Below, piece by piece: positions 18,578-38,951 of a stretch of DNA of 42,483 nucleotides. This DNA comes from Bacteroidales bacterium (GTDB lineage: Bacteria > Bacteroidota > Bacteroidia > Bacteroidales > PXBB01). Under the pieces are notes generated by a model that worked only from the letters and a program-made list of their open reading frames with translations, was not told where the DNA came from and did not search any database. Numbering within the stretch: position 1 is the stretch's first letter; each line of letters opens with the position of its first letter. The DNA lies in contig JAQVVM010000042.1 of the NCBI GenBank assembly GCA_028698995.1, forward strand, positions 1-42,483. Direction: 5' to 3'. Made by a program: the position numbers and the translations under genes.

Positions 18578-18583
18578 AACTAT

Positions 18584-20308
18584 TTAATCGTTTTTTTTAC
18601 TTAGAGCCCAATCTCTATTTATTTTTGCAGCTTCAAGGGTAGAATCGATTTCCAATGCCTTTTCACAGTTTTCTACGGCCAAATCCCATTTTTCAAGACC
18701 GATATAAGAACAACACATATTATAATAAGCAGGTGCAAAGTCGGATTTAAGTTTTAATGCTTCCAAACAGGCATTTATACACTTGTCGTACATTTGAGTA
18801 TTGTAATATTCCAGACTTAAATTCAGGTAATATTCAGGTGTATTGTTTGCATTTATAGAACGTTTTTGTTGAGAAATGAATTCTAAGTTTATAGATGCAG
18901 CCTCATTTGCAGGGTTAATTCTTAAAGCATTGGCGCAAGATTCAGTGGCTTTATCCCATTGCTCAAGTTGAATATAGCAACAGCACAGGTTATAATGTGC
19001 AATATCACAATCCGGATTAATTTGCAGTGCTTTAAAACAAGCATTCATGCTTTTTTCATACAATTTTCGGTTGTACATTACTTCGCTTAATCCTATGTAA
19101 GCTTCAATTGGAGGAGATTTGAAGGCATAATTATTAGAAAGTTTTTCTGCTATGTTTCTGAAAGGCAATTCAGCTTTTTTAAATTCAAATCCCTTCATAT
19201 ACATGGGCATAGACCAAATCAAACAAAATGGAATCAGTAACAAAAATTTTAAATTTTGTTTATTTGAAAGAATACTGTTGTTTTGTTGTGATTCAACCGT
19301 TTCTTCGGGTAATAAGAAAGCAAAAAGAATCAGAAAAAAGATAAAATGCATATTTAACCACCTACCCCAGTCAAGAGCAATAATAAAAAGAGGTAGAGTT
19401 GTAAGAAAAACAATTAAAAAAGCGGTAAGGAATTTCTTTAGAAGAAGTTTGTTTGTGTTAAATACAAAACCTGTAAAGTGCAAAAGTCCTAACGTTAAAC
19501 TGACAAAATACAGCATATATCCTGCAAATTCAGCTTTGATATTTTCAATGACATGTAATATAGAATCCCACCTGTCTGGCCACATGAAGATGCCGTAAAG
19601 GCTGAAAACAACACCTCTTTCATAAAGAATGTCTATTGAATCACCGTTGTTTATGCTGCTGCCAAAAAGATAAATGATAAGTAAAGGAATGAATGATGAA
19701 AGTACATATAAAGAATATCTTTTCAGTTCAATTTTTTTGTTGAAAAAATAAAGAGTAAGTCCAAAAAAAGGAGTATAAAAGAATATAACTTCATGGAGCA
19801 AGGTAGTTAGTGTTAAAAGAAAAAGGATAAAATATTCCTTCCTTGGTGTAAGCTTGTTGTTTGATAATAAATAGGTGAAGTAGGCAAAAATAGCAAAGAG
19901 TATTATTTCTTTACGACCTAGTGTTTCTATATCATTAAAAAAGTAAAGCAGAGTAAGAGGTGAAAGCAATAATGTAAAGTAATAAATATCTATAATTCTG
20001 TTTTTCAGTATTTTATAAAAATATTTAAAGAATATGAAATAACAAAATAATTGGGTTAAAAGAACAAAAAACTGTAGTTTAATAGTTGTTAAATCCTGAA
20101 GTAAGAAAAAAAAACTACCAGAAAGCCCTCTTCTTTTGAAGCCACCATCAGCATAGTTTATTAACCAATCTCCAAGGATATAACTGTGGGGTTGTAAATA
20201 CAGATTGAAATACAAAAAAATTGCAATCCAAATAAATGTTAGAACAAATAGTAATTGCACATAGTTTTTAAGATTCAGAAAATAATTATTGATCTTATTA
20301 ATTTCCAT
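18584..20308 (-). CDS. Polytopic membrane protein with C-terminal TPR repeats, paralogue 2 (GT-C-like?)
   Basis: 574 residues, co-linear with its two neighbours and plainly homologous. The first membrane helix (about 17-36) is followed by LGDWLINYADGGFKRRG (D47, D54). Further shared blocks are FNDIETLGRKE, LHEVIFFYTPFF and DWGRWLNMHFIFFLI. After a short linker (about 385) come two TPR pairs containing YNLCCCYIQLEQW and YNMCCSYIGLEKW. The TPR part should mediate protein contacts. Which side of the membrane it faces depends on the exact helix count, which cannot be settled by eye. It is 34 bp downstream of paralogue 1 and cotranscription is likely. Function unknown. Confidence 0.8.
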   Translation of the reverse strand: MEINKINNYFLNLKNYVQLLFVLTFIWIAIFLYFNLYLQPHSYILGDWLINYADGGFKRRGLSGSFFFLLQDLTTIKLQFFVLLTQLFCYFIFFKYFYKILKNRIIDIYYFTLLLSPLTLLYFFNDIETLGRKEIILFAIFAYFTYLLSNNKLTPRKEYFILFLLTLTTLLHEVIFFYTPFFGLTLYFFNKKIELKRYSLYVLSSFIPLLIIYLFGSSINNGDSIDILYERGVVFSLYGIFMWPDRWDSILHVIENIKAEFAGYMLYFVSLTLGLLHFTGFVFNTNKLLLKKFLTAFLIVFLTTLPLFIIALDWGRWLNMHFIFFLILFAFLLPEETVESQQNNSILSNKQNLKFLLLIPFCLIWSMPMYMKGFEFKKAELPFRNIAEKLSNNYAFKSPPIEAYIGLSEVMYNRKLYEKSMNACFKALQINPDCDIAHYNLCCCYIQLEQWDKATESCANALRINPANEAASINLEFISQQKRSINANNTPEYYLNLSLEYYNTQMYDKCINACLEALKLKSDFAPAYYNMCCSYIGLEKWDLAVENCEKALEIDSTLEAAKINRDWALSKKND

Positions 20309-20342
20309 TTATCGGTCTTTATTAATGTTAAAAAATAATGTT

Positions 20343-22079
20343 TTAATAAGATGCATTTTTCTGTTTTAATGACCACTCCAGATTTATTTTTGCTGCCTCA
20401 AAATCAGGCATGATATCTAAAGCTTTCTGACAATCTGAAACAGCATTATCCCATTGCGATAATCCAATATAAGCACAGCATTTATTATAATAAGCCTGAG
20501 CGTAGTCAGGTTTTAAATTAATGGCATTATTACAGGCTTCAATGCTTTTTTCAAACATTTGCATGTTATAATATTCCAAGCTTAAATTCAGGTAATATTC
20601 TGCTGTTGGGTTCTCGGGCAAGGTTTGCGTGTTTTGAAAAGCCCATGCTTTATTCGCTTTTGCCAAAGTATAATCCGGGTATATTCTCAGTGCATTGTCA
20701 CAGGCTTCAATGGCTTTATCCCATTGACCTAAAGCATTATATGCAGAACAGATATTGTTGTAAGCCTGAAAAAAGTCAGGGTTTATTTTTGTAGCATGCT
20801 CACACACTTCAATGCATTTTTCATATTGTTTTTCGTTATAATATGCCAAGCTTAGATTCAGTAATACATCAGGTGTTGGGCTATTACGTACCTGATGTTC
20901 TGCTACATGTATGAGAACCGGATAAAAATGGAAATCAATCTTCTTAATAACAAAGCCGGACCCATAGCCGGGCATGCCCCATAAAAGCATAATGGGTATC
21001 ATCATCCAATGCCAAGAAAATCCTTTTGAATTTCTATCAATTACCTGAATTTCGTCAACTGAATCCTTGTTTTCAAGAAATGCAGCAAATAAAATAAGTA
21101 AAAGCATAAAGTGACTATGAATCCATCTGCCCCAGTCTATAGCAAGAACAAATAAGGGTATGGTGTAAATTATCAAGGCTAAAGATAGTATGAGTAATTT
21201 CTTTAGGTTTTTTTTGTTATTCAAATAAATGAAATAAAAAAAGTGAAGCAATCCTGCAATAAGACTGATTGAATACATTATATAAGGAATTGCCCTCTCT
21301 TTGTAATAGGCAAAAGCATGAGAAACAGCTTCAGAACCTTCCGGCCAAATAAAAATGCCTTGGCTGTAATGGCTGAAAGTTACCCCTCTGCTTAGTAAAA
21401 TACCGATAGAATTTCCTTCGTTGATACTATTGCCAAATACATAAATAAGAACTACAGGAATAAAAGAGGCAAGAAAATAGGGGATATATCTTCTGATTTC
21501 AATTTTTTTGGTGAAAAAATACAATGCCACAATGAAATAGGGTGTATAGAAAAACATGACCTCATGGCATAATGTAGCAATGAAAATAAGAATACAAATC
21601 AGTGCTTCTTTTGTTTTTGATAACTTATTTTCTGCCAATAGGAAAATAAAAAATGCAAATAGTGCAAAAATTAATTGTTCTTTCTTTCCAATCGACTCCA
21701 CATCATTGAAATAAAACATTAAAGTAAGAGGTGAAATGACCAAAGTTAGGAAATAGATACTGATTTTTTTTCTGAGCAGTATTTTTGATAGGTAAAGGAA
21801 AAAAATAAAATACAACAATAGCTGAGAACAGTATGCCAAAGCTTGAAGACTGATGCCTGAAAAATTCTGAATTAAAAAAAGCAGGCTTCCGGTCAGACCT
21901 CTTCTTTTGAATCCCCCATCTTGATAGTTTACAAGCCAGTCTCCGAGTATATAGCCCTGAGGAAATGAAATATTAAAATGGTAAAGGAAACGCACAAGCC
22001 AGAAGAAAATAAAAATAAAAAAAACAATAATCAAGCTTTTCAAACTTAAAAATTGTTTTATATAACGTTCTTCGTCCAT
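20343..22079 (-). CDS. Polytopic membrane protein with C-terminal TPR repeats, paralogue 1 (GT-C-like?)
   Basis: 578 residues, first gene of the three-paralogue cluster. Membrane helix 1 (about 14-34) is followed by LGDWLVNYQDGGFKRRG (D47, D54). FNDVESIGKKE has Lys where the others have Arg; CHEVMFFYTPYF and DWGRWIHSHFMLLLI are shared. Between about 240 and 260 lies a loop with HYSQGIFIWPEGSEA. Four TPRs start near residue 395. The first pair (YNNICSAYNALGQW) lacks the double Cys seen in the other five positions of the family. The upstream 120 bp are AT-rich and separate it from the nitroreductase gene, so its promoter probably lies there. No signal peptide apart from helix 1. Function unknown; a GT-C-like transferase is the leading guess. 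Confidence 0.8.
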   Translation of the reverse strand: MDEERYIKQFLSLKSLIIVFFIFIFFWLVRFLYHFNISFPQGYILGDWLVNYQDGGFKRRGLTGSLLFLIQNFSGISLQALAYCSQLLLYFIFFLYLSKILLRKKISIYFLTLVISPLTLMFYFNDVESIGKKEQLIFALFAFFIFLLAENKLSKTKEALICILIFIATLCHEVMFFYTPYFIVALYFFTKKIEIRRYIPYFLASFIPVVLIYVFGNSINEGNSIGILLSRGVTFSHYSQGIFIWPEGSEAVSHAFAYYKERAIPYIMYSISLIAGLLHFFYFIYLNNKKNLKKLLILSLALIIYTIPLFVLAIDWGRWIHSHFMLLLILFAAFLENKDSVDEIQVIDRNSKGFSWHWMMIPIMLLWGMPGYGSGFVIKKIDFHFYPVLIHVAEHQVRNSPTPDVLLNLSLAYYNEKQYEKCIEVCEHATKINPDFFQAYNNICSAYNALGQWDKAIEACDNALRIYPDYTLAKANKAWAFQNTQTLPENPTAEYYLNLSLEYYNMQMFEKSIEACNNAINLKPDYAQAYYNKCCAYIGLSQWDNAVSDCQKALDIMPDFEAAKINLEWSLKQKNASY

Positions 22080-25420: not shown

Positions 25421-26758
25421 TTAGTCTTTAACACAACGCACACTGAACCCGCTCTCAATAGCATAGCTGGAACGACCAACAAGGGTAAGGCTGTAATTCA
25501 ATGCATGAACCCAAGCAAAAAAAAGTGGTTCCGTGGATGTCCAGAAATAAGCACTTTGTCCAAAATCCTCGAAAACGCCATTCCATGTATCACCACCGGG
25601 AAGGCCAGAAAAACCGCTTGAATTTGTTGCGCCTGCATTTGGTGCCCACCAATAAGTAGTACAGGTTTCTTTTAAGTTACCGCCTTCGTCAGTGCCAAGT
25701 AAACTAATTGTTGACATATCATAAGGAAAAGCATTAGGGTTACTGCCAGCATTTCTTTCTAAGGTGGTCCATTCGTAATGAGAAGGTATGTGCCAGCCAG
25801 TAGGGCAAAGACCTTTAACGGGAGTAGTGCACCTGTCGTTAGGTGGTGCGCCTGTGCCATTGCATTGGGAAGCCCCTTGCATCATGTTTTCCCACTCATA
25901 CAAACCACCCATGGGGCAATTGGGATCTGCTTGTCCGTTTACATTCATACAAAACTTTGTTCCTGAAACTTGTGGTGTTACAATGGGTGCATAAGTTCCT
26001 GCATTCAGATTTTCTGCCATCCACCATTGATTTCCTATCTTTACAATAGAGTAGTTGTTTCCATTGGCATCAGTACATGGGATAAAAGTAAAGGTGACAG
26101 TCTGACTATTAGATGGAACAAGCATATAGACGGTACGAAAATCACCTGATTTTCCTGTCAATTTCAATACATCACCTGAATTATATTGCATTTCAATTAA
26201 TGACTTTTGGACTTTCAATTCCTCTGTGCTTACGAGAACATGTGTGTTTGAAATTGTTTCAATATGCTTAAATTCAGTGCTTTCTGTGGGTTCATTTATA
26301 CTTACTATCCTAGAGTTGAAGCAAGAAGTCTCAACTTCAACCTTCAAAATGAATATTCCTTTATTTAACCCTTTAAGTTCATAGGTGTGATGACCTTTGG
26401 GAAGCAAATCCTCTAACTTAATAATTGTTCTTCCGGTTAAATCGTAAAGCTTTAAAGTTGTTTTTCCTGATGAGTAGGATTCAAAATTTACGAAACAATG
26501 GCCTGATGTTGGGTTAGGGTAGATATTTATTTCAGTTGCTTTACCTGAATTTTCTGCATTAATTCCGGTTTCAGCAACGAGATGCAAAATGTCAGTTCCA
26601 TTAAGTTCTAAATTTGTACATTGTGTCAGATTTTCAACTTTAACAAAGTCAACATTTGTGCTTGCTCCCGTTCCTGTAAAGTCAATCTGATAATTCTGAG
26701 CTTGGAGCAAAAAGCTTGTAGTTATTCCGAAAATTAAGGTCAATACTTTTGATTTCAT
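25421..26758 (-). CDS. Secreted FISUMP-domain protein with internal T9SS type A-like domain
   Basis: 445 residues with a signal peptide ending ...LLQAQ (about 1-20). Residues about 75-145 resemble a type A T9SS tail (INIYPNPTSGHCFVNF, LYDLTGR, LKGLNKGIFILKVE), but it is internal, not terminal. The C-terminal about 215 residues are a Fibrobacter succinogenes major paralogous domain: CTDANGNNYSIVKIGNQWWM, AENLN, GGLYEW, CPTGWHIPSHYEW, a GFSGLPGG-like segment, YFWTSTE and FSVRCVKD. FISUMP domains occur on exported proteins of Bacteroidota and Fibrobacteres; their function is unknown and a C-type-lectin-like fold is often suggested. Several Cys pairs suggest disulfides. It is isolated, with a 233-bp empty region upstream. 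Confidence 0.88.
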   Translation of the reverse strand: MKSKVLTLIFGITTSFLLQAQNYQIDFTGTGASTNVDFVKVENLTQCTNLELNGTDILHLVAETGINAENSGKATEINIYPNPTSGHCFVNFESYSSGKTTLKLYDLTGRTIIKLEDLLPKGHHTYELKGLNKGIFILKVEVETSCFNSRIVSINEPTESTEFKHIETISNTHVLVSTEELKVQKSLIEMQYNSGDVLKLTGKSGDFRTVYMLVPSNSQTVTFTFIPCTDANGNNYSIVKIGNQWWMAENLNAGTYAPIVTPQVSGTKFCMNVNGQADPNCPMGGLYEWENMMQGASQCNGTGAPPNDRCTTPVKGLCPTGWHIPSHYEWTTLERNAGSNPNAFPYDMSTISLLGTDEGGNLKETCTTYWWAPNAGATNSSGFSGLPGGDTWNGVFEDFGQSAYFWTSTEPLFFAWVHALNYSLTLVGRSSYAIESGFSVRCVKD

Positions 26759-27755: not shown

Positions 27756-28643
27756 TCAATTTGAATGGTTGAAACGCAAAAGTCTGGGTTTGTTATTCTG
27801 CCCTTCGTTAGAAATAAGCATGTCTCCGTTTGGCATAAAAGCAATTCCCTCTGCTTTATTGAATAAAAGAGGGTTTAGTTGTTGTATGTGCTCAATTTCA
27901 CCATTTGCATTACAGATAAAAAGCAGGTACTCGGCAGCCGAAAGAATAAATATTTTCTTAGTTATAGGGTGTATGGCTATTGAAGAGATCCGCATTTTAA
28001 TGTCAGGGATGATCTTTTCTCCATTTTTCTTTGTCTTTTCAGGAAGTTGTATGTTGTTAATTTGAGCAAAATCTCTAATTTCATTTAGGTTGAAGTTAAA
28101 AACAGGGACTTGAGAAGTTGACATATTATCCAAGTTATAAGCATAAATAGCCTTTCTGTCCTTGAATTCAGAACCATTTCCGGCTTTTGTTTTACAACCA
28201 ATCAGTAAACGATTTTGGTCTGAATCGTAACAGAGTCCCTCACTTTCTTTAGCATTGATACCGGTAATAATTGAGTCGGCAGGAGAATGAGCTGTTTTAA
28301 AGTCTGAAATAAAAAAAATAACGCCATCACTTCTTAGTACGTACAGGTTGTTATTAACTCTTGCAATATCTTCATAATCGCCGTCAGAAGCAAAAGTCAG
28401 TTGATTAACAATCATTTCGGATTTAAAATTGTAAAAAAATATAATTCCTTTTTCATCCTGAACACAGGCCAATGTCACTGAATCAATTACTGTTATGCCG
28501 GAAATTTCATGAAGTATTTCAGGTAAATCAATATTTAAATCGGGTGACGCTAAATTGTAGCCCGAAAATAAATTTGTTTGGGAGGTGCATGAGTTATAAC
28601 CAAATAAGGCTATTAAAACTAAGATATTCAGCAGTTTTTTCAT
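27756..28643 (-). CDS. SdiA-regulated-type beta-propeller lipoprotein
   Basis: 295 residues. The signal sequence has a loose lipobox (FGYNSCTSQ, Cys19), suggesting a lipoprotein. Residues 35-290 match the SdiA-regulated (YjiK-like) pattern: LPEILHEISGITVIDSVTLA, CVQDEKGIIFFYN, GDYEDIARVNNNLYVLRSDG, KESEGLCYDSDQNRLLIGCK, ISSIAIHPITKKIFILSAAE and EGIAFMPNGDMLISNEGQ. The fold is expected to be a beta-propeller; biochemical function is unknown. It is the last gene of the operon, 28 bp after the TolC-type gene. Because repeated ISG..., EGL... and EGIA... blocks bind calcium or sugars in related propellers, a role in recognising a surface polymer is possible but speculative. Confidence 0.8.
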   Translation of the reverse strand: MKKLLNILVLIALFGYNSCTSQTNLFSGYNLASPDLNIDLPEILHEISGITVIDSVTLACVQDEKGIIFFYNFKSEMIVNQLTFASDGDYEDIARVNNNLYVLRSDGVIFFISDFKTAHSPADSIITGINAKESEGLCYDSDQNRLLIGCKTKAGNGSEFKDRKAIYAYNLDNMSTSQVPVFNFNLNEIRDFAQINNIQLPEKTKKNGEKIIPDIKMRISSIAIHPITKKIFILSAAEYLLFICNANGEIEHIQQLNPLLFNKAEGIAFMPNGDMLISNEGQNNKPRLLRFNHSN

Positions 28644-28671
28644 GGAGAATTAATTTTAACAGTAGTATAAT

Positions 28672-29994
28672 TTATTCTGGTAATACGCCTGTGTAAAAGT
28701 CAATAATTTTTTTCTTAATTATCAGATTGTATTTAGCTGTGAGTAATTCCTTTTCTGAAGTGATGAATCTTTCTGCAACATCTGTAAACTCAAAAATGCC
28801 CATATTGCCGATTTCAAAAAGTCGTGATGCGTAATCGTATTCTTGTTTTAAAGCGTCATATTCTTTTTGTAATGCAAAAAAGAGTCTGTAAGCACTGTTA
28901 TAGTCTGTTACAGCAGTAAAAATTTTGTTTTCAAGTTCTAGGAGCAAATTTTTGGAATTTATTTTTGCGATTTCCATATCAATGCGTGCGATATCCATGC
29001 CTTGTCTGATTGTGTAATTCTGATAAAGAGGAATATTTAGCTTGAGGCCAATATATTGGTTAAAATTGTTGTGGATTTGTGTTCCGAAATTGTTGGTTAA
29101 ATTATTTGTTGAGGTTTTAGTACCAATTTGACCTTCAATCAGCAGAACAGGATACTTTAAAGATTGTGCTTGCTGGAATGCAAATTTTGAACCTTCAATT
29201 TCTGAATTTCCAATTTTAATATCAGGGAAAGAATTGATGGCTTTTTCAAGGGTTACATTGTAATCATACAAAGAAAGTTGTGTTTGAAGAGTATCCTCAG
29301 AATTAATTATTACAAATTCCTGTGTATTACTTAGTCCAAGTAAAAACATGAGTTGTGTTTTCTGTTGTTGTGAAAAATTTTCAGTCATTATAAGTAATGC
29401 TTCGTCCTGTGCAATTAGAGATTCTATGCTGTAAATATTTCTTTGATGTAGTATCCCAGAATTGATGCTTCCCTGAATAAATGTTTTCCTTTGTTGAAGT
29501 CTCTCTATCCTTTTTCTAATCAGTTCAGCACTCTCATCAGCCATTAAAACTTGGTAATAATAGAATGTTATTTCAAGAGCAATTTCATTAAATCTTTTTT
29601 CGAATTTAAGGTTTGCAGTATTTACTTGGCTACGGCAAAGATTTTTATGGTATTTATTATAAAATCCTCTGAAAAGATTAAAATCCGAGTTTAGCTGGAA
29701 GCTGTTCATATAGGTATTGCCAAAGTCCAGAATGTTGGTTGTGGGATCTATCAAAAAGCCATAGTTATTACCTGTTCTGATATCAGCATCCAGGTTGGGA
29801 TAAATAAGGTGTTTTGATGCTGTCTGATTGATTTGTGCTCTATCAATTTCCTGTTTAAGCAGTGCAAGCTCAATATTGCTTTCTTTTGCAGTCTCCAGAC
29901 ATTTTTTTAAATCCCAAACTTCTTGAGCCGAAAGGTTCTGTAAGTAAAGAAGGAGCAATAAAATAATGTTGAATTTCATTTTTATCATATTCAT
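28672..29994 (-). CDS. TolC family outer-membrane efflux protein
   Basis: 440 residues with a signal peptide (about 1-23, LSAQ). WDLKKCLETAKESNIELALL starts the first TolC helix. The duplicated helix-strand layout is visible: YPNLDADIRTGNNYG and LKLNIPLYQNYTIRQGMDIA are the beta-barrel strands, and long heptad-rich helices lie between about 100-200 and 325-430. It forms an outer-membrane channel together with a periplasmic adaptor, here probably the HlyD-type protein encoded three genes upstream in the same operon. No inner-membrane pump (ABC, RND or MFS) is encoded in the operon. The start ATG at 29994 is close to a second Met (MKMKF region), either of which gives a good signal peptide. Substrate unknown. 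Confidence 0.92.
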   Translation of the reverse strand: MNMIKMKFNIILLLLLYLQNLSAQEVWDLKKCLETAKESNIELALLKQEIDRAQINQTASKHLIYPNLDADIRTGNNYGFLIDPTTNILDFGNTYMNSFQLNSDFNLFRGFYNKYHKNLCRSQVNTANLKFEKRFNEIALEITFYYYQVLMADESAELIRKRIERLQQRKTFIQGSINSGILHQRNIYSIESLIAQDEALLIMTENFSQQQKTQLMFLLGLSNTQEFVIINSEDTLQTQLSLYDYNVTLEKAINSFPDIKIGNSEIEGSKFAFQQAQSLKYPVLLIEGQIGTKTSTNNLTNNFGTQIHNNFNQYIGLKLNIPLYQNYTIRQGMDIARIDMEIAKINSKNLLLELENKIFTAVTDYNSAYRLFFALQKEYDALKQEYDYASRLFEIGNMGIFEFTDVAERFITSEKELLTAKYNLIIKKKIIDFYTGVLPE

Positions 29995-30003
29995 TAAAAT
30001 GAA

Positions 30004-30678
30004 TTAGTCTTCATCATAAAATAAATTAACCTGTCTGACATTGCTTAGTTTCTTCAATTCAGCAATAAGTACTTGTCCTTTATTCTCATTCTTTAGGTTC
30101 ACGTAAAATGAAATTTCAAGGATGTCATGCTCTTCCTCTCCTAATGTTTTGACATTGATAACTTTATATTTCCAGCAATATTTTCTTAAAATATTATCAA
30201 ACTCATTATTTTCACCTGCAGAACTTAAGGATATGAGTTGTAAAAGATATTCCCTGCGTTTGGGCATTGCAAAATTTACTTTATTAATAATGACAAAAGC
30301 AGCTCCGATAATGATGGTAGCGAAAATGGCAACGGAGAAAAGTTTAACACCGCAAGCAAGACCTATTGCCAATGAAAAGAAGATAAACATAATATCTGAA
30401 GCATCTTTAACAGCAGTACGGAACCGAATAATTGACATGGCACCCACCATTCCAAAAGCACGAGCAAGATTATTACCAATAACCATAATAACAACACTTG
30501 TTATCATGGTAAGCATAACAAGCGAAACTGTAAAAGAAGCTGAATAACTCAGACCTTTATATGTCCAACGGTATATCATCGAAATTCCTACTCCACAAAG
30601 CAGTGCCACTAAAATATTTGCAATAACATCCTTGATAGTGATACTGAAAACAAAAATATTCTGAAAATCTGTCAGCAT
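30004..30678 (-). CDS. DUF4956 membrane protein
   Basis: 224 residues. Four membrane segments lie at about 16-36, 46-68, 94-110 and 113-132. The DUF4956 hallmark is the loop GAMSIIRFRTAVKDASDIMF (78-97), whose charged residues (R84, R86, K90, D91) are unusual within a membrane protein. A cytoplasmic C-terminal domain (about 140-224) looks ACT/ferredoxin-like. The function of DUF4956 is not established. From memory it is often encoded beside VTC polyphosphate polymerase-like and CotH genes, as here. It follows the VTC gene by 6 bp and precedes tolC by 9 bp, so translational coupling is likely. A transport or polymer-translocation role is inference. Confidence 0.9.
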   Translation of the reverse strand: MLTDFQNIFVFSITIKDVIANILVALLCGVGISMIYRWTYKGLSYSASFTVSLVMLTMITSVVIMVIGNNLARAFGMVGAMSIIRFRTAVKDASDIMFIFFSLAIGLACGVKLFSVAIFATIIIGAAFVIINKVNFAMPKRREYLLQLISLSSAGENNEFDNILRKYCWKYKVINVKTLGEEEHDILEISFYVNLKNENKGQVLIAELKKLSNVRQVNLFYDED

Positions 30679-30684
30679 AATTTT

Positions 30685-31431
30685 TTAATAAAGTTGTAAT
30701 GATTTTAGATTGTTTACATCGTAACCAATTGTATATTTTGAAAGTGCTTCATGTCTCAGCTTAAATTCTTCAACAAGACTTTTAGCCCAGCTTGGCATAT
30801 TGTCGCCATAATATTTTATTTCAAGAATAAAATGACTGTCAAAAAGATATTTGAGATTATTATCACAATATAATTCTTTAAGAGGAGTGTAAGTTCTACT
30901 TCTTATGTTTTTATCAAAAGTAATTCTTGTGCCTGAATCAAATTTCCCATGATATGCTTCTCTGTCATACACAATCAGAACCGTAGGTTTAAATTGGTAC
31001 TTCACAATATGATAAAAAAAACGTTTAGCATCTTCTACACCTTCAGTATATTTGTTATCCTTAATGACAAATTTTTCTACATCTCCGGAAGCAAACACAT
31101 TCTCAACATCATCAAATAACATAAAAGCACGGTGCTTACGGATGCGGTCTTCAATTTTTCGTTTGATTTCAAAAACAACTTTACATCCATTACAGTAATT
31201 GTCATAGCCACGTACTCTGAATTTGCGACGAAACATAATTCCATCACCTTTTTCGTAATAACTTATAAGGTCATTACTGTCAAAATAGATGCTTCTTACT
31301 GTATATTGGTTAATCCCTTTTTCGTTCACAGAAGTAAAACTATCAGGTCTTACAAATGTGATAAGGCGCTTGCGTAAAGCATCCATTAATGAATTTGGAA
31401 CAAGATATTTTCTTTCGTATCTGAGCAGCAT
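30685..31431 (-). CDS. VTC domain protein (polyphosphate polymerase-like)
   Basis: 248 residues forming one VTC/CYTH-type tunnel domain. Basic and acidic residues of the tunnel are visible: ERKYLVP (6-12), RSIYFDS (46-52), FRRKFRVRGY (67-76), VFEIKRKI (86-93), RIRKHRAF (96-103) and, near the C-terminus, FILEIKYYGDNMPSW. Yeast Vtc4 uses such a tunnel to make polyphosphate from ATP; bacterial single-domain members beside DUF4956 are annotated by similarity and their activity is unproven. The protein is cytoplasmic with no membrane anchor and would work with the DUF4956 membrane protein encoded 6 bp downstream. The upstream HlyD-type gene ends 1 bp before its start. Confidence 0.9.
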   Translation of the reverse strand: MLLRYERKYLVPNSLMDALRKRLITFVRPDSFTSVNEKGINQYTVRSIYFDSNDLISYYEKGDGIMFRRKFRVRGYDNYCNGCKVVFEIKRKIEDRIRKHRAFMLFDDVENVFASGDVEKFVIKDNKYTEGVEDAKRFFYHIVKYQFKPTVLIVYDREAYHGKFDSGTRITFDKNIRSRTYTPLKELYCDNNLKYLFDSHFILEIKYYGDNMPSWAKSLVEEFKLRHEALSKYTIGYDVNNLKSLQLY

Positions 31432-31432
31432 T

Positions 31433-32530
31433 TTAGTTTTCTGAAACTGTATTAAACAATCTTAAAAAATATTCAAAAAGAGAAATTTCTCCACATTCAA
31501 TTGAGCCATCAAGAAACATATTAAAGAACATCTGGTCTATGTTTTCCGTAATTTCAACAGTGATAAAAATAACCTGTCTTCTTTTTAAAATCTGAACAGA
31601 ATTGTCAATATCAATTATTTTTCCTTGAATAATTTTTCCCTGAGGGGTTTCCCCGAAATTTACAATCCCGTCCAATTTCAGATATTTGTTTTCATAAAAT
31701 TCAATTGGCAATACAACAAGCATACTGCTGATATCAACCATTTTAATGATTTCTTCAATATCAATAATATTTCCGTTTAAATCAACATTGCCTTTTTTCT
31801 GGCGTATAATTTTTCCATTGAACGGGGCAATAATTATGTTTGCTTTGATTTTTTTATTGAGTTGTTCAATTTGTTGTTCATACGATTCAATAAGACCTGT
31901 GCTTAGATTCAGTTGTTCTTCTTTTGCACCGGTTTCCATATTTCTGACATTAGATTCAGCTATTTTAAAATTGTGTTCTTTAATTTTTAATTCATTCAGA
32001 GCTATTTCAAAGTCGTTTCTTGATACCAAACTATCATTATACAGTCTGTTGACTCTTTCAAAAATACCCTTTTGGGTTTCCCATTCAACAGAGGCAAGTT
32101 CTTTTAGTTCTCTGTAGTAATCAACAAGTTCTTGTTTTTCTCCTGATGCGTACACATCAAATAATCGTTCTTCGTTGATAAGTTTTCCTTCAAGTTCCAA
32201 CAAACGCAAGCGGTCTTCGTTTGAGTAAATATAACCAATTGTATCGCTATAATTTATAGTGAGTTTGGAGAATATTTCATTGTTGAGAATAAATTCTGAT
32301 GCATCACCCCTAACAAATTCTGAAACAGAATATTGAGAAATACTGTTGATGCGGTTATTACGTAAAACAGTAAAGAGGGTTCCGTTTGTGGATTTACTTA
32401 TCGTCCACTCTTGAATCGGATATACAATACCTTTTGAAGAAATAGAGTAAGGAATTTTAATAAAGTATGAGCTGACTGCAAGCGTAATTATTACTAATAA
32501 AATAATGATTGTGGTTTTTTTGTTTTTCAT
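31433..32530 (-). CDS. HlyD family membrane fusion (adaptor) protein
   Basis: 365 residues. There is one N-terminal membrane anchor (about 6-24), then a split lipoyl/barrel domain (SSKGIVYPIQEW early, IIIAPFNGKIIRQKKGN late) around a long alpha-helical hairpin (about 105-235, with many Glu, Lys and Leu and the turn VSRNDFEIAL-type). This is the architecture of the periplasmic adaptor that links an inner-membrane machine to TolC. No pump is encoded alongside it. The flanking genes encode CotH (55 bp upstream) and VTC (1 bp downstream), so it appears dedicated to this operon. The C-terminus lacks a long membrane-proximal extension. Substrate unknown. Confidence 0.88.
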   Translation of the reverse strand: MKNKKTTIIILLVIITLAVSSYFIKIPYSISSKGIVYPIQEWTISKSTNGTLFTVLRNNRINSISQYSVSEFVRGDASEFILNNEIFSKLTINYSDTIGYIYSNEDRLRLLELEGKLINEERLFDVYASGEKQELVDYYRELKELASVEWETQKGIFERVNRLYNDSLVSRNDFEIALNELKIKEHNFKIAESNVRNMETGAKEEQLNLSTGLIESYEQQIEQLNKKIKANIIIAPFNGKIIRQKKGNVDLNGNIIDIEEIIKMVDISSMLVVLPIEFYENKYLKLDGIVNFGETPQGKIIQGKIIDIDNSVQILKRRQVIFITVEITENIDQMFFNMFLDGSIECGEISLFEYFLRLFNTVSEN

Positions 32531-32585
32531 TTTTCCTGAGAATGAATAGAGAGATTTTAACCGGATTTTCGATTATACGTTTATT

Positions 32586-34409
32586 CTAAAAAATTGTTGC
32601 CTTTTCAATTTGTTGCCCTACTTTGATGAAATAAAGGCCACTTCTAAACCCTGAAACATCAATAGAAGCCGGAAATGACAAAAGGTTTTTATACACTTTT
32701 TTCCCTGTAATATCATAAATAATTAGCTCTTCAATCAAAAATGTGGTTTTATTGATTTGTAATATTTTAGAGTTACTGTTATAGTAAATAAAAAAGTTAT
32801 TGGAGTTGACTTTTATTGAGGGGGTTCCAACAATATCTATAAGATTAAAATAGGCATGTTCAGCCTGCTCCGGTGAAAAAATACCGGCAAACTGATTTTC
32901 TGCATATATATAGAACTGGCTGTAAGCTATGTTTGCAGTTAAAGAAATACCAAATATATTATCACCTGCAATGCCATCATTGTGATTGCCATCATCAAGC
33001 ATGCTGAACAATTCAAACTTCTGAAAATGGTCTGGTCTGAAGCCTATAAATACATTTGTTGCATTATTCACCTGAGCAGTTATATTGGCAGTTGATGTAG
33101 GTTGAGAAAATGTTGAAGAAATATTTGTTACTACAGGAGGTATTGCAGTAAATTCAGACTGTGCTTGTATATATTCAATACGATCTGACATCAGGTTTGA
33201 AATACCCGGTGTCAAATAAGCTCCTGCTGAAATATCTGTTGTTAATGAATTATGAAACTGAGCATCTGAAAAGAACTTATTTGTATCTGCTGTTACAAGA
33301 CTGTCTATCAATGTCTGCATTTGATTTGCCAGAGTAATATACAAATTATTAGAGAAGAAATCATTGATTAATGTTCTCAAATGGGCCACATATTTTCTTT
33401 TATAAACAGGGTTCTGCATAATGGTATTAATAAGTGGCCAATAGGGATCTGATGCATGAAAATCAATCGGGAAGTTCTTCATGTTATCAATGGATAATGC
33501 GGCCATACTTGTATTTGAAGAACCTGCAAAGGGAAATCCTCCAAAAGACATATTTAAATCCCAGACCACAGGGTTAAAGACACCATTATTATCTTTAAAG
33601 AGGTAGTAATTTTGAGCAAATGTACCAGAATAGCTGTCGAGATTTACCAATAGGTTGTTGAAAGCCAGCATCCAGATTGCTCTGTCCATGTCAATGTATG
33701 AAGCAGCTACTGATTGGTTGTTGGTTACAATGTTACACAATTCAACCAGATCGCTCCACCCGTAATCCGATTTAAGTTCATAATAATCTGAATAGGCTAA
33801 ACTGTCGGCAGAAATGTACTTCAGATTACTTTTAACTGAAGGGCCGGGTGTTGTTGCCGGATTACATTTTATAAAAGTGTTGTTTTTCAGGCTTAAAAAG
33901 CTTTTTGAACAGAATGTCTTATTTACATCTTCAATGTTTGAATAAAGTCCAATGTAATTGTTGTTTATATATAGTTGGGCAAAATTTGCTTTAGAGCAAT
34001 ACATATAGTTCTTTAGGATATTATAAGATAATATTTCCCTTATCATGGATGGATCCTGATAACCATTGCTTAGTTTGATGTCTGTTATATCGTTGTAAGA
34101 CTGGCTCTGATATTTATCTAAAGAAATATGAAAAGGATTTTTAGTAAAAGATGAATCATATGAGCTGCTGCCTTTATATTTCACACCTACATCAGAAAAA
34201 ACGGTTCCATTTATAATTATCGAATCCGCCTGTAAATAATCGCCGGTTGTTGCTTTAAGTGTATCTAGCTGATATTCCCAGTTGCTCTGAGAAAAGAATA
34301 ATTCAATTTTTTGAATGGTATCTAAATTGTAAAAAGATGGTTGGGCATTAATATGTTTAGCCCCATAGAATATAGAAAACAAACAAAATATGAGATAGTG
34401 TTTTTTCAT
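32586..34409 (-). CDS. CotH kinase family protein with T9SS type A tail
   Basis: 607 residues with a signal peptide (about 1-22, INAQ). CotH core: IELFFSQSNWEYQLDTL, GVKYKGSSSY (75-84), KNPFHISLDKY (90-100), YINNNYIGLYSNIEDV, then MDRAIWMLAFNNLLVNLDSY with D258, and PVVWDLNMSFGG with D284 and N286, the expected catalytic and metal-binding region. Spore-coat CotH of Bacillus is a protein kinase that phosphorylates other coat proteins; this predicts an extracellular kinase here. A linker with an Ig-like segment (about 420-520) and a type A sorting tail (LIIYDITGKKVYKN, GFRSGLYFIKVG) follow. It starts 2 bp after the upstream gene's stop codon. Candidate substrates are the two T9SS proteins encoded upstream. 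Confidence 0.92.
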   Translation of the reverse strand: MKKHYLIFCLFSIFYGAKHINAQPSFYNLDTIQKIELFFSQSNWEYQLDTLKATTGDYLQADSIIINGTVFSDVGVKYKGSSSYDSSFTKNPFHISLDKYQSQSYNDITDIKLSNGYQDPSMIREILSYNILKNYMYCSKANFAQLYINNNYIGLYSNIEDVNKTFCSKSFLSLKNNTFIKCNPATTPGPSVKSNLKYISADSLAYSDYYELKSDYGWSDLVELCNIVTNNQSVAASYIDMDRAIWMLAFNNLLVNLDSYSGTFAQNYYLFKDNNGVFNPVVWDLNMSFGGFPFAGSSNTSMAALSIDNMKNFPIDFHASDPYWPLINTIMQNPVYKRKYVAHLRTLINDFFSNNLYITLANQMQTLIDSLVTADTNKFFSDAQFHNSLTTDISAGAYLTPGISNLMSDRIEYIQAQSEFTAIPPVVTNISSTFSQPTSTANITAQVNNATNVFIGFRPDHFQKFELFSMLDDGNHNDGIAGDNIFGISLTANIAYSQFYIYAENQFAGIFSPEQAEHAYFNLIDIVGTPSIKVNSNNFFIYYNSNSKILQINKTTFLIEELIIYDITGKKVYKNLLSFPASIDVSGFRSGLYFIKVGQQIEKATIF

Positions 34410-34411
34410 TC

Positions 34412-35389
34412 TTACTGTACTATATATTTAAAAGCAGTTTGTTTTTTATTTAAGATATTGGTAACAAAAATAAAATAAATGCCCGGTTTAAGATTGGCAA
34501 TGCTTAATGAGGAGTTTGTAAAGTCTTCATATGAATTTATGAGAGAACCTTTTGCGTCATTTATTGAAATATTATTGTGCAGCTCATTGAAAAATATTTT
34601 AGCGTTACCATTTGAGGGATTGGGAAATATATTTACCGCAGATGTTTCTACATCATTAATGCCTGTGCCACAAGGGCCACAACCGGAAAAGCAAACAACA
34701 GCCATTATGGTGTCTTTTGCAACAAAAATACTTCTGTTGTTGTTTGTTGCACATCCTGCAGGCACTATTTCAGCATTAATGGCATTACTTCCATTGGCAA
34801 ATTTATATTCGTAATTTCCATCAGGCATATACTGTATTACTTCATAAATGCTACTTTCGAAGCTATAAAGTGCTGACAGAGCAAACCCCCACGAATTAAA
34901 GCTTCCGGCTACATGCACCCCATTGGCAGAGACTGTTTCATAGCTCATGTCAACTAAAAAACGGACTAATTTTTTCCCTTCAGGGGCATTGCCTCCGTAT
35001 TTGATAGCTCCAATTAAAGTAGTGTCGTTGGCTATGGAGTCAATATAAATCCAGCGGTTATCGTTAAAACCATAGCCTACCTGTGATTCAACCGGAATAA
35101 ATTCTGTCTCATAAAACAAATCACCATTTATAAAACGGTATTCATATTTTTGAAAGGCAGGAATATTAACAATAATACTGTAAATATTTGATGACCCTTC
35201 CTGAAGCATGGTACATATGGCGGGATTCCAGTTATCAATATAACCTGCTGCTATTTGAAAATCACCGGAAACATGAATCCCGTTTGGACTTATTGTTTGC
35301 CCTGTCATATCAACAGAAAATTTAACACTCTTAGCAAAAATAGTTGTGCCTGTGAGAAGCACAAAAATACAAACTATTATCTTTTTCAT
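34412..35389 (-). CDS. T9SS protein with two starch/glycogen-binding-like domains
   Basis: 325 residues with a signal peptide (about 1-19, IFAK). Two homologous domains, about 21-125 and 140-235, share VKFSVDM...SPNGIHVSGDFQ / VRFLVDM...SANGVHVAGSFN, then W, then YEYRFINGD / YEYKFANGS, then NDNRWIYI / NNNRSIFV. This matches the early-Ig/CBM20-CBM48 type found in starch- and glycogen-binding proteins, so polysaccharide or protein binding is likely. A Cys cluster, CFSGCGPCG, ends the second domain. A type A tail follows (VNIFPNPSNGNAKIFF, LKPGIYFIFVTN). It lies between the arylsulfotransferase-like gene (11 bp) and cotH (2 bp). It may be a CotH substrate or scaffold; that is inference. Confidence 0.8.
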   Translation of the reverse strand: MKKIIVCIFVLLTGTTIFAKSVKFSVDMTGQTISPNGIHVSGDFQIAAGYIDNWNPAICTMLQEGSSNIYSIIVNIPAFQKYEYRFINGDLFYETEFIPVESQVGYGFNDNRWIYIDSIANDTTLIGAIKYGGNAPEGKKLVRFLVDMSYETVSANGVHVAGSFNSWGFALSALYSFESSIYEVIQYMPDGNYEYKFANGSNAINAEIVPAGCATNNNRSIFVAKDTIMAVVCFSGCGPCGTGINDVETSAVNIFPNPSNGNAKIFFNELHNNISINDAKGSLINSYEDFTNSSLSIANLKPGIYFIFVTNILNKKQTAFKYIVQ

Positions 35390-35400
35390 TTTTATTTAAA

Positions 35401-37122
35401 TTATTTAATGAGTGATAATTTTTTAATAACTTTTTTATTGTTTTCAAAAGTGAAAACTACAAAATAAAGTCCTGATTGATAATCTTTTAAATCAAATGAT
35501 TTAATGTTGTTATCATTCAAAATGATTCTTCCAATGGGGTCAAATACTTCAAGCAGATAGTTTAAATTGTTTGAAGGCAACTTAATATTGAAAACATTTG
35601 ATGACGGGTTGGGATAAATTTCCAGGTTGTCAATTGCATTTTCATTGGTTCCGACTGTTACATCAACAACGACAGAAGATGTGGAAGAACAGCCCAGAGC
35701 CGTATTGGTTACCAATACTGTATATGTTGTTATTGTATTAGGTGTCAAAATAGGGTTTTGTACAGACGATGTAAATCCTGCCGGATTTGAAGACCAATCG
35801 TAAGTATAAGTAGGGTTAGTTTCAGTTACTGAAGTAGCGGTTGCGTTAAGAGTCACCGGTGTGCCGGCTGTAATTTGAGTTTGTGAAGCACCTGCTGTAG
35901 CTATTGGCCCTCTTACATAACAAAGAGAGTACCTGTATACATGTGTTGAATTTGTACTGGTTTTAGACCAGACTATAGTATTTGAAGAATCAATTTCATA
36001 AACTGAAGCAAAAGAATTGTTTACAATCATATTCCCGTTTGGTAATTGTTGAGAATTACCTTCATTCTGGCAGGTAAAAGAAGAGTTGTATTGATAGGCG
36101 TAGTTTGCCGGGCCATAAGCCTGACCTGCTGTATAGGAATAATTGTATCCATTGTAAGGAGGACTCCATATGGTAATAGCCGTTTTACTGCCTGTTCCGC
36201 CCTTATTATTGTAGGCACAAAGATAATTGGGATATTTAGGATTATCAGAAGATATCCAATGGGCATCGTGTATGACATTAAATTTAGCTGTTCCTGAGGC
36301 TCCATATGAAGCCGGATTACCCCAACGATATAGAAAATCGCCTCCTTTGCCTGAGTTACCTCCTGTATGGCCTGCTGCTTCGGCTGTTGTTGTACTGTGG
36401 TCTATTACAAACACCTGATTCATATAATGCATACTTACAACTATCTGATCAAGAGCAGCATTATAATCCACACCATTCATGTGCCATCGGTCTGATAAGT
36501 CACTGCCAGTAGTGTAATTGATATTCAGCAATTCAGGGTGATCAGAAATAGTGGCATAATAGTTATCTTTAGCGGCATTATAATTCTGACACAGGTGATC
36601 CCATAAATGCCATTCCCATACAACAGTTCCAGTTGTAGGTCCTGTAGGATGCACCTCCATAAGTTTTTCCGATTTTATTGTTACATTGCTTGATGCACCT
36701 GCCTGAGTAGCTTCTGCGCTGGTTTTTTTTTCGTAAGCAATCATAAGCACATTACCGTTGGGCATAGGGCAGATGTCATGATGCAGCGTGAAATTTGCAC
36801 TGTTGTACTGAAAATCCCAGGCCACTGTACCAATCCATGTCACTTTTTGCACGCCTCCTGTAACACCTCCACCTGTCATCCCTCCGGATGACGTATAATT
36901 ATATGATCTTACTATTGTATCTCCGGGAATGAGATAGGCTGAATAACCCGATGTTTTGTTTGAAGCAAACGTCCATGAATGATACTGGGTGCTGTTAGTA
37001 TCAACTAGGTAAGCGCTTGTCTGACCTTTTGTCGCATAAAAAGTGTACATACCCCATTGCTGAGCAAATGAAGAAGTCATCGAAATTATTATTAATGTTG
37101 CTAAAAATTGATATTTTCTCAT
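35401..37122 (-). CDS. Arylsulfotransferase (ASST)-like T9SS protein
   Basis: 573 residues with a signal peptide ending SSFAQQ (about 21). Residues 40-410 follow the ASST beta-propeller pattern: LHHDICPMPNGNVLMIA, VVWEWHLWDH, DRWHMNGVDYN (H214, at the place of the His sulfated during catalysis), QIVVSMHYMNQVFVIDHST (H232), DFLYRWGNP, FNVIHDAHWI and NSQQLPNGNMIVNN. ASSTs move sulfate between phenolic compounds in the periplasm; in exported Bacteroidota homologues activity is untested. An Ig/PKD-like domain (about 415-490) and a type A sorting tail (LEIYPNPSSNVFNIKL, YQSGLYFVVFTF) follow. It is the first gene of the eight-gene operon, 102 bp upstream of which (on the other side) the LytTR regulator gene ends. 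Confidence 0.87.
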   Translation of the reverse strand: MRKYQFLATLIIISMTSSFAQQWGMYTFYATKGQTSAYLVDTNSTQYHSWTFASNKTSGYSAYLIPGDTIVRSYNYTSSGGMTGGGVTGGVQKVTWIGTVAWDFQYNSANFTLHHDICPMPNGNVLMIAYEKKTSAEATQAGASSNVTIKSEKLMEVHPTGPTTGTVVWEWHLWDHLCQNYNAAKDNYYATISDHPELLNINYTTGSDLSDRWHMNGVDYNAALDQIVVSMHYMNQVFVIDHSTTTAEAAGHTGGNSGKGGDFLYRWGNPASYGASGTAKFNVIHDAHWISSDNPKYPNYLCAYNNKGGTGSKTAITIWSPPYNGYNYSYTAGQAYGPANYAYQYNSSFTCQNEGNSQQLPNGNMIVNNSFASVYEIDSSNTIVWSKTSTNSTHVYRYSLCYVRGPIATAGASQTQITAGTPVTLNATATSVTETNPTYTYDWSSNPAGFTSSVQNPILTPNTITTYTVLVTNTALGCSSTSSVVVDVTVGTNENAIDNLEIYPNPSSNVFNIKLPSNNLNYLLEVFDPIGRIILNDNNIKSFDLKDYQSGLYFVVFTFENNKKVIKKLSLIK

Positions 37123-37224: not shown

Positions 37225-37911
37225 TTATAAATTGCCATTTAAAATATCTTTGTAAGTTTTCCCGATAGGAACTTCATTTCCTGCAATTGTAACAGTATTT
37301 TTGTGAACGCGTTCAACCTTTTTTAATGGAACAATGTATGATCTGTGGATTCTAAGGAAATCAGTTGCAGGAAGTTTTTCAATAATATTGGTCATAGTCA
37401 TCCTTGTAATGATGTGATTTTTTTTGTCTAAATGTATTTTAATATAATCGTCATATCCTTCTATATAAAGAATTTCTTCAATATTTACTTTAACAAGACT
37501 GTAACCGGACCTTATAAAAAAATGTGTTGAATTCTGGAAGTTAGATTTTGCTTGAGATGTAAAAATTTTTGCAGCCTTGTCTACTGCTTGTTGAAACCGT
37601 TCAAAGGTAAACGGTTTCAATAGAAAGTCAACAGCATTTACATTAAAACCGGCAACAGCATACTCACTAAAGGCTGTTGTGAATATTATAAGCGTTTTTT
37701 GTCCTGATTTTTTTAGAAATTCGAAGCCTGAAACTGAAGGCATCTGTATGTCTAGAAATAGTAAATCTACAGGGAAACTTGATATGTAATACAATGCTTC
37801 ACGCGGCTCAGTAAATGTTTTCTTAAGGCTTATAATATCAGTTTTCATAGAGAAATTCTCAATAATTCTTAGTGCGGGAGGTTCATCATCTATGGCGATA
37901 GCTCTAATCAT
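37225..37911 (-). CDS. LytTR-family response regulator
   Basis: 228 residues. Receiver domain 1-120: acidic pocket D8, D9, phosphoacceptor D54 in LLFLDIQMPSVSG, switch T78/T79 and K99 in DFLLKPF. A LytTR DNA-binding domain (about 130-228) contains FFIRSGYSLVKVNIEEILYI, EGYDDYIKI, FLRIHRSYIVP and EVPIGKTYKD. It is paired with the LytS-type kinase; the two genes overlap by 1 base (start at 37911). Its target is unknown. It lies between the kinase/copper-type receptor divergent region and the ASST-CotH operon, so either could be controlled by it. Confidence 0.95.
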   Translation of the reverse strand: MIRAIAIDDEPPALRIIENFSMKTDIISLKKTFTEPREALYYISSFPVDLLFLDIQMPSVSGFEFLKKSGQKTLIIFTTAFSEYAVAGFNVNAVDFLLKPFTFERFQQAVDKAAKIFTSQAKSNFQNSTHFFIRSGYSLVKVNIEEILYIEGYDDYIKIHLDKKNHIITRMTMTNIIEKLPATDFLRIHRSYIVPLKKVERVHKNTVTIAGNEVPIGKTYKDILNGNL

Positions 37912-38951
37912 TATAATTCTATTTTTAATTGAGTAACATAAGTTGAGTCATCTTCAGTAATGTGAAGTTGATATTTAATTGGATACAAATTTTCAAGTCT
38001 CTTTTGAGTGTTTTTCAGGCCTAATTTATACGAGTCCTCTGGGGATTTAATTGATAATTTCCTGTTGAATGTTCTCAGAAAAAGTTGGTTTCTTTTTATA
38101 TCAATGTTTATTTCAACAGTTGAATTCTCTTCAGGATTTATACCATGTTTAAATGTGTTCTCAACAAAAGGAATTAATATAAGTGGCGCAATAAATAGAT
38201 TACTTGAATCGCCACTAATTGTAAAGGACAGGTTAACAGTATTTTCAAACCTGAACTTTTGTAGATCAACATAGTCCCGAATATAATTAATTTCTTTCTC
38301 AAGAGGTACAAAATCACTGTTAGCTTCATTGATAATATAGCGCATTATACCAGATAATTTAACTATAGCTGTTGCTGTTACATCCGATTTATCAAGGGCA
38401 AGTGCATAAATACTGTTGAGTGTATTAAAAAGAAAATGTGGGTTAATCTGGGCTTTAAGATAAGATAGTTCAGCTATTGTCTTTAATTTTTCTGTATTTC
38501 TTAAATGTTCATTTAGTTTAAGTATCAATGATAGTATCAAAATAAGTAAAAATTGAACTATTGGAGGTCCAAAATTAAGAAAACCAAAAAACTTAAAAAA
38601 ATGGGGTGGGGAAGGGGGGCTGTGTCTCATATTGTCGCTGAGTTCACTAAATATTTTGGGCTCAGGATGTGGATTGTGAAAATCAAATAGTAAATCTGGT
38701 AAAAGAATAATAATAAAAAATATTATTACAACTATTCCAGAATAAAAAAAATATTTTTTTGTAAAATAAAAGCGTGGTACTAAAAAATAATAGTTGATAT
38801 AAAAGAAAACAAGCATCAATAAATATACTATAAAATTTCTTTGAAAGGGAGGCAACAAAAATAAATGTAAGGATACATCAAAATCAGGAGAGAAAATGAC
38901 TGGTAATGAGAGAAAAAACAGGCAACCTATTATATGAAAAATTATTTTCAT
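37911..38951 (-). CDS. LytS/YehU-type sensor histidine kinase
   Basis: 346 residues. Four membrane helices (about 3-20, 39-58, 66-90, 127-146) precede a His_kinase domain with phosphoacceptor H172 in AQINPHFLFNTLNS and an HATPase domain (LILIPFVENTFKHGI; GLKNTQKRLENLY). The loop between helices 3 and 4 (91-126), predicted periplasmic, carries H92, H95, M108, H110 and H117 among many Pro, which suggests metal sensing. The kinase and regulator genes form an operon, and the kinase is divergent from the copper-type TonB receptor across 202 bp. A role in copper response is inference from the loop and neighbour. Confidence 0.93.
   Translation of the reverse strand: MKIIFHIIGCLFFLSLPVIFSPDFDVSLHLFLLPPFQRNFIVYLLMLVFFYINYYFLVPRFYFTKKYFFYSGIVVIIFFIIILLPDLLFDFHNPHPEPKIFSELSDNMRHSPPSPPHFFKFFGFLNFGPPIVQFLLILILSLILKLNEHLRNTEKLKTIAELSYLKAQINPHFLFNTLNSIYALALDKSDVTATAIVKLSGIMRYIINEANSDFVPLEKEINYIRDYVDLQKFRFENTVNLSFTISGDSSNLFIAPLILIPFVENTFKHGINPEENSTVEINIDIKRNQLFLRTFNRKLSIKSPEDSYKLGLKNTQKRLENLYPIKYQLHITEDDSTYVTQLKIEL

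Follow-up and report, generated by a model that had tools for sequence, protein, structure and literature searches.

Contig JAQVVM010000042.1 of a Bacteroidales bacterium (assembly GCA_028698995.1; 42,483 nt, hereafter the window) carries on its minus strand a string of eight envelope genes. They encode an arylsulfotransferase-like (ASST) protein, a double starch-binding-like protein, a CotH kinase, a HlyD-type adaptor, a VTC-family polyphosphate polymerase domain protein, a DUF4956 membrane protein, a TolC-type outer membrane channel and an SdiA-regulated-like protein. Judged by gene order across genomes, this region is two separately conserved modules joined in one gene string rather than a single fixed eight-gene operon. 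We put at about 0.5 the probability that the two fused modules are a polymer exporter working from the inner membrane (module 1, HlyD through SdiA-like) and a set of surface proteins, including the CotH kinase, delivered by the type IX secretion system (T9SS; module 2, ASST through CotH).

The eight reading frames lie exactly where the original prediction, which was made from the sequence alone, had placed them, and the gaps recomputed along the minus strand agree with it at 11, 2, 55, 1, 6, 9 and 28 bp. A run of eight genes on one strand, none more than 55 bp from the next, is a common operon layout; promoter scans of both the sigma-70 and the Bacteroidota type gave matches at chance level. 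The predicted family assignments also held. Pfam bears out seven of the eight, the HlyD-type gene being identified by other routes, and Por_Secre_tail domains on the ASST-like, starch-binding-like and CotH proteins mark the three anticipated T9SS type A cargo genes. Directly upstream of ASST, on the same strand, are a histidine kinase gene and a LytTR regulator gene that the prediction had not mentioned.

Comparison of a window-type VTC alignment with 84,980 genomes gave at least 80 loci, of which 79 of those listed were usable; these are not independent, many coming from related soda-lake sediment genomes. In 77 of the 79 the gene directly upstream of VTC is HlyD, and in 75 the gene directly downstream is DUF4956; of the four loci that break the latter rule, two do so at a contig end. 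Gaps within the trio are mostly 0–20 bp. The hosts include Bacteroidales, Marinilabiliaceae, Flavobacteriales, Saprospirales and others within the Bacteroidota, and extend beyond that phylum to Neomarinimicrobiota, KSB1, Latescibacterota, Ignavibacteriota and others. Cultured environmental species also carry the triad, among them Alkaliflexus imshenetskii (L084) and Alkalitalea saponilacus (L080). ASST occupies the HlyD position in one genome of the Stahlbacteria (L143). A reciprocal test in 148 phylum-wide genomes, which is independent of how the VTC neighbours were chosen, showed that all 14 HlyD-profile matches above 119 bits adjoin a VTC gene, while the remaining matches (≤107 bits) cover the profile only partially and none adjoins VTC. 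Five VTC genes of this sample lack the window-type HlyD; in the three that were examined (L149–L151) a HlyD_3 protein follows DUF4956. VTC and DUF4956 are paired in all 29 VTC-bearing genomes of a 60-genome sample of the order, and in the loci of other VTC lineages a DUF2490 protein is often placed after DUF4956. A frame of 774–787 aa that had appeared to encode a VTC fusion protein (G194/L148) was discarded as an artefact, a GC-rich open frame overrunning the HlyD gene.

The other two genes of module 1 are less constant. TolC directly follows DUF4956 in the window and in L068, L069, L135 and L136, and is itself followed by an SdiA-like gene in the window, L068 and L135, the last of which (Lishizhenia) has all five genes of module 1 in an order identical to that of the window. 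Alignment over 258 columns (hhalign probability 92%, E 6e-7) makes the SdiA-regulated-like protein of the window a homologue of a protein that adjoins the triad in about 14 listed loci. By this comparison, TolC and SdiA-like genes are recurrent yet optional parts of the module. An ABC, MFS or RND pump gene was found neither in the window operon nor recurring beside the triad among identified neighbours in the 79 listed relatives, a survey of loci with which a pump encoded elsewhere in the genome would be compatible.

Module 2 has its own record of conservation. A genome from another family of the same order (L167) carries ASST, the starch-binding gene and CotH in the window order with similar spacing; the starch-binding orthologue, in the corresponding position, is 45% identical to the window protein, and the CotH protein, at a contig end, shows 51% identity to window CotH over 546 aa. 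The HlyD–VTC–DUF4956 genes of that genome are on a different contig. G001, a genome of the same family as the window, repeats the window's layout of divergent receptor-like gene, histidine kinase, LytTR and ASST (L169), with 51% identity in ASST as far as the contig extends, but its HlyD–VTC–DUF4956–TolC–SdiA set is located elsewhere, after dapF (L041). Because the modules are separate in both genomes, the window appears to unite them, and the 55-bp gap would be the seam. The close ASST subfamily is found mainly beside CotH, with six of six order-sample matches above 580 bits lying in CotH loci, and in most relatives the triad has neither ASST nor the starch-binding gene beside it. Several large neighbours initially called ASST were dropped, their matches having come only via T9SS tails or repeats.

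The two modules, or parts of them, have nevertheless been joined repeatedly. CotH lies within 10 kb of the triad in 25 of the 79 listed loci against 1.6 genes expected from the genomic density of CotH, a roughly 15-fold excess in which CotH identity was Pfam-checked for representatives; the count includes the large lamin-tail CotH proteins, which a profile built from window CotH alone misses. The recurrence of CotH–VTC–DUF4956 neighbourhoods that had been predicted is thereby upheld. Within the order sample, CotH is present in 25 of the 29 VTC-bearing genomes and in 10 of the 31 others (Fisher p = 2.5e-5, kinship ignored), and in nine cases it is ≤3 kb from VTC. On the VTC tree the CotH linkage changes 18 times, at least 12 of them on well-supported branches, although truncated contigs inflate the losses and some branches are long. 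ASST and CotH together are joined to VTC–DUF4956 in L158 (with HlyD), L143, L046, L047 and L066. The last three belong to a second VTC lineage with a near-fixed order of ASST, propeller, CotH, two small proteins, VTC, DUF4956 and DUF2490, and a histidine kinase–LytTR pair is also present in L047 and L066. Both monoderm plasmid loci examined (Planococcus and Pseudobutyrivibrio) keep VTC–DUF4956–CotH without HlyD, which agrees with a role for HlyD/TolC in crossing the outer membrane or envelope. These distributions indicate that the string is not a chance assembly. The proposal of eight genes acting as one unit thus stands with respect to non-random assembly and fails with respect to unity, since each module is conserved separately elsewhere. 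The test proposed with it, whether VTC/DUF4956 relatives keep their neighbours, gave a divided answer: HlyD and CotH are kept non-randomly, whereas ASST and the starch-binding gene usually do not adjoin VTC and TolC is optional.

At the protein level, the 248-aa VTC protein matches PF09359 at 120 bits (cut-off 23), and its profile matched only Vtc4/2/3 chains in the PDB. Residues R72, R74 and E204, invariant in six relatives, align to Vtc4 R264, R266 and E426, the last correspondence depending on a weak second alignment segment; mutating these Vtc4 residues impairs or inactivates the yeast enzyme (PMC9911596). Pfam finds the VTC domain alone in this protein, with neither an SPX nor a Vtc1-type membrane domain, while DUF4956 is carried by its neighbour. 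The latter has four predicted membrane helices and an ACT/ferredoxin-like tail, an anatomy matching that reported for SIR_1592 of S. intermedius. In its structural model (mean predicted local distance difference test score, pLDDT, 72) only the ACT-like tail matches known folds; the PDB match lists, which this tail filled, offered no known fold for the membrane part. The HlyD-type protein has no Pfam match and only weak NCBIfam matches to adaptor families; its PDB profile match is MacA, and its model (pLDDT 88) has MacA and EmrA among its best structural matches (Z 12–13.6). The model combines the features expected of an adaptor: a membrane anchor (helix 2–23), a lipoyl/barrel domain and a long alpha-hairpin with arms at 104–165 and 171–230.

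Among the module 2 proteins, CotH matches PF08757 at 146 bits (cut-off 24), and its K90, D258 and D284 are invariant across nine CotH proteins; by motif and spacing, the two aspartates are probably the counterparts of the catalytic D228 and D251 of B. subtilis. ASST matches PF05935 at 50.6 bits (cut-off 24.2). Its subfamily profile found only T9SS tails and marginal sulfotransferase matches in the PDB and could not be usefully aligned with an arylsulfotransferase of solved structure, and single-sequence PDB searches with CotH and with ASST returned no catalytic-domain homologue. Delivery by T9SS is consistent with the sorting tails on all three proteins and with SprA, found in the genome at 603 bits.

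We propose the following mechanism. VTC, given its fold and intact catalytic residues, would work on the cytoplasmic face of the membrane, building a phosphate chain from ATP; the exported polymer is probably polyphosphate. DUF4956 would be its membrane partner, a probable passage or sensor, and the HlyD adaptor and TolC would take the chain through the periplasm and the outer membrane. Since HlyD/TolC come without a conserved pump gene, export may be driven by polymerization itself, the growing chain acting as the motor in the manner of yeast VTC. The simplest such machine would consist of a polymerase that feeds a membrane partner and an adaptor. Under the LytTR pair, T9SS would deliver the ASST-like, starch-binding-like and CotH proteins to the surface, where CotH may phosphorylate surface or matrix proteins. 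Polymer export fits the anatomy of the operon, and the near-invariant link to HlyD strengthens the suggestion.

Several observations weigh against this proposal. DUF4956 is a candidate channel rather than an established one. TolC is inside the operon in only 5 of about 80 listed triad loci, and the others would need TolC encoded elsewhere. The window genome also encodes PPK1, so VTC is not its sole source of polyphosphate. In the order sample, CotH is missing from four of the 29 VTC genomes and VTC from 10 of the 35 CotH genomes, so neither requires the other. In S. intermedius, the VTC deletion is the only one of the CotH, VTC and DUF4956 deletions without a reported phenotype (PMC12345266). 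Apart from these objections, two genomes with the HlyD–VTC–DUF4956 triad (G033 and G049) gave no PPK1 match, so that most of their polyphosphate synthesis may fall to VTC.

In a bolder version of the proposal, exported polyphosphate serves as the phosphoryl donor of the surface CotH kinase, ATP being absent outside the cell. This would account for the repeated association of an extracytoplasmic kinase with a polyphosphate polymerase and a membrane or envelope route, and also for the CotH–VTC link in monoderms lacking HlyD. The 10 CotH-bearing genomes without VTC count against it, as does the fact that known CotH uses ATP, in the spore mother cell, and we consider it unlikely. We are still more hesitant about the full conception of a new secretion machine of the TolC type, whose pump would be replaced by a polyphosphate polymerase, whose export would be driven by chain growth and whose product, polyphosphate, would be the extracellular donor for T9SS-delivered CotH kinases. 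The CotH–VTC–DUF4956 genes might instead, as has been suggested for the Pel clusters of Gram-positives, play an accessory part in regulating or decorating an exopolysaccharide whose synthesis lies elsewhere, with HlyD/TolC exporting the glycan or a modifying group. The three genes do occur at pel operons, where mutation of DUF4956 or of CotH changes Pel and aggregation (PMC7112168, PMC12345266); an MBOAT gene adjoins VTC in L053, glycosyltransferases are present in Pseudobutyrivibrio, and the window encodes a starch-binding-like protein. Yet PelG is above cut-off in none of the 60 order genomes, the window's included, and the 79 listed loci show no conserved glycan synthase next to the triad, which leaves this reading doubtful.

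The folds of HlyD and TolC are those of efflux pumps, and DUF4956 bears an ACT-like domain, as might be expected if HlyD/TolC belonged to an efflux or type I system of the usual kind with its pump encoded elsewhere and VTC/DUF4956 separately had a part in phosphate sensing. The restriction of this HlyD subfamily to sites beside VTC (14 of 14 strong matches) and the lack of a conserved pump gene at the locus make that improbable. Least probable by far is that envelope genes came to lie in a row by chance: most relatives indeed lack ASST and the starch-binding gene beside the triad, and the genome holds at least 150 T9SS-tailed reading frames, but each module is conserved on its own, the two have been joined repeatedly, and the CotH linkage is about 15 times the expectation.

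Table 1. Genes of the two modules and of the adjoining regulator pair, with their positions in the window
Feature	Coordinates	Strand	Basis and remarks
Sensor histidine kinase (PF06580)	37911..38951	-	Probable regulator of module 2; HisK–LytTR–ASST order also in a same-family genome (L169)
LytTR response regulator (PF00072 + PF04397)	37225..37911	-	Pfam; in L047, L064 and L066 such a gene lies next to VTC–DUF4956
Arylsulfotransferase-like (ASST; PF05935) + T9SS tail	35401..37122	-	Pfam Arylsulfotrans + Por_Secre_tail; first gene, module 2
Double starch-binding-like (X25/AMPK1_CBM) + T9SS tail	34412..35389	-	Pfam; module 2
CotH kinase (PF08757) + T9SS tail	32586..34409	-	Pfam CotH + Por_Secre_tail; last gene, module 2
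55-bp spacer	32531..32585	-	Largest gap; boundary between modules
HlyD/MacA-type periplasmic adaptor	31433..32530	-	Weak NCBIfam, PDB profile, predicted fold; first gene, module 1
VTC-family (triphosphate tunnel) polyphosphate polymerase domain protein	30685..31431	-	Pfam; module 1
DUF4956 membrane protein	30004..30678	-	Pfam; four predicted membrane helices + ACT/ferredoxin-like tail; module 1
TolC-type outer membrane channel (PF02321 x2, OEP)	28672..29994	-	Pfam; module 1
SdiA-regulated-like beta-propeller	27756..28643	-	Pfam SdiA-regulated; last gene, module 1

Elsewhere in the window, a 445-aa protein (25421–26758) has its T9SS type A tail at residues 79–145, in the first third, and Fib_succ_major at 239–444; sorting tails are normally C-terminal. 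A 2317-aa protein (14–6967) combines nine Ig_7 domains, PKD domains and a CHU_C T9SS signal, and the same 31-bp stretch occurs at 1445 and at 2804 within its gene, a sign of near-identical repeats. Three consecutive TPR-rich proteins of 574–588 aa on one strand (16811–22079) are apparently tandem paralogues, and a full-length serpin (209 bits) is encoded at 12555–13793 in this bacterial genome.

The closest known relatives of the window string are the Gram-positive Pel clusters, in which CotH, a polyphosphate polymerase and DUF4956 are accessory genes (PMC7112168), and C. perfringens NELoc-2, which contains CotH and VTC genes (PMC2879425). All three families likewise occur in one gene string there, although the NELoc-2 gene in the DUF4956 position is annotated tubulin-like and is only presumptively DUF4956. 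In contrast to the Pel accessory set, the window has no Pel genes, adds a fixed HlyD and optional TolC and SdiA-like genes, and carries a T9SS tail on CotH. The eukaryotic VTC complex (Vtc1/3/4; PMC9911596) has its catalytic fold and residues in common with window VTC and is the source of our model of polymer synthesis coupled to membrane passage, but in the window the SPX and Vtc1-type domains are lacking, DUF4956 is the partner and an adaptor/TolC route takes the place of the vacuole. Tripartite TolC systems (MacAB–TolC, EmrAB–TolC and type I secretion) have the adaptor and outer membrane channel folds in common with module 1, whereas the window locus has no ABC, MFS or RND pump gene and the inner membrane partners that it encodes are VTC and DUF4956. 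Literature searches found neither a published HlyD–VTC–DUF4956 trio nor a paper joining DUF4956 to HlyD, and no dedicated bacterial polyphosphate exporter, though polyphosphate has been reported outside bacterial cells. The CotH–VTC–DUF4956 neighbourhood is thus already known and the HlyD–VTC–DUF4956 trio is apparently new. A DUF4956–DUF2490 pair is part of an iron-dependent stimulon in B. thetaiotaomicron (BT3498–BT3499; PMC10434189), so that a tractable species has a relative of the system. The authors of the S. intermedius deletion study did not find synteny of CotH, VTC and DUF4956 outside Pel (PMC12345266); the many genomes in which we find it correct the view that it is confined to Pel, and the trio, kept across several diderm phyla, is a concrete candidate for polyphosphate export and for donor supply to secreted kinases.

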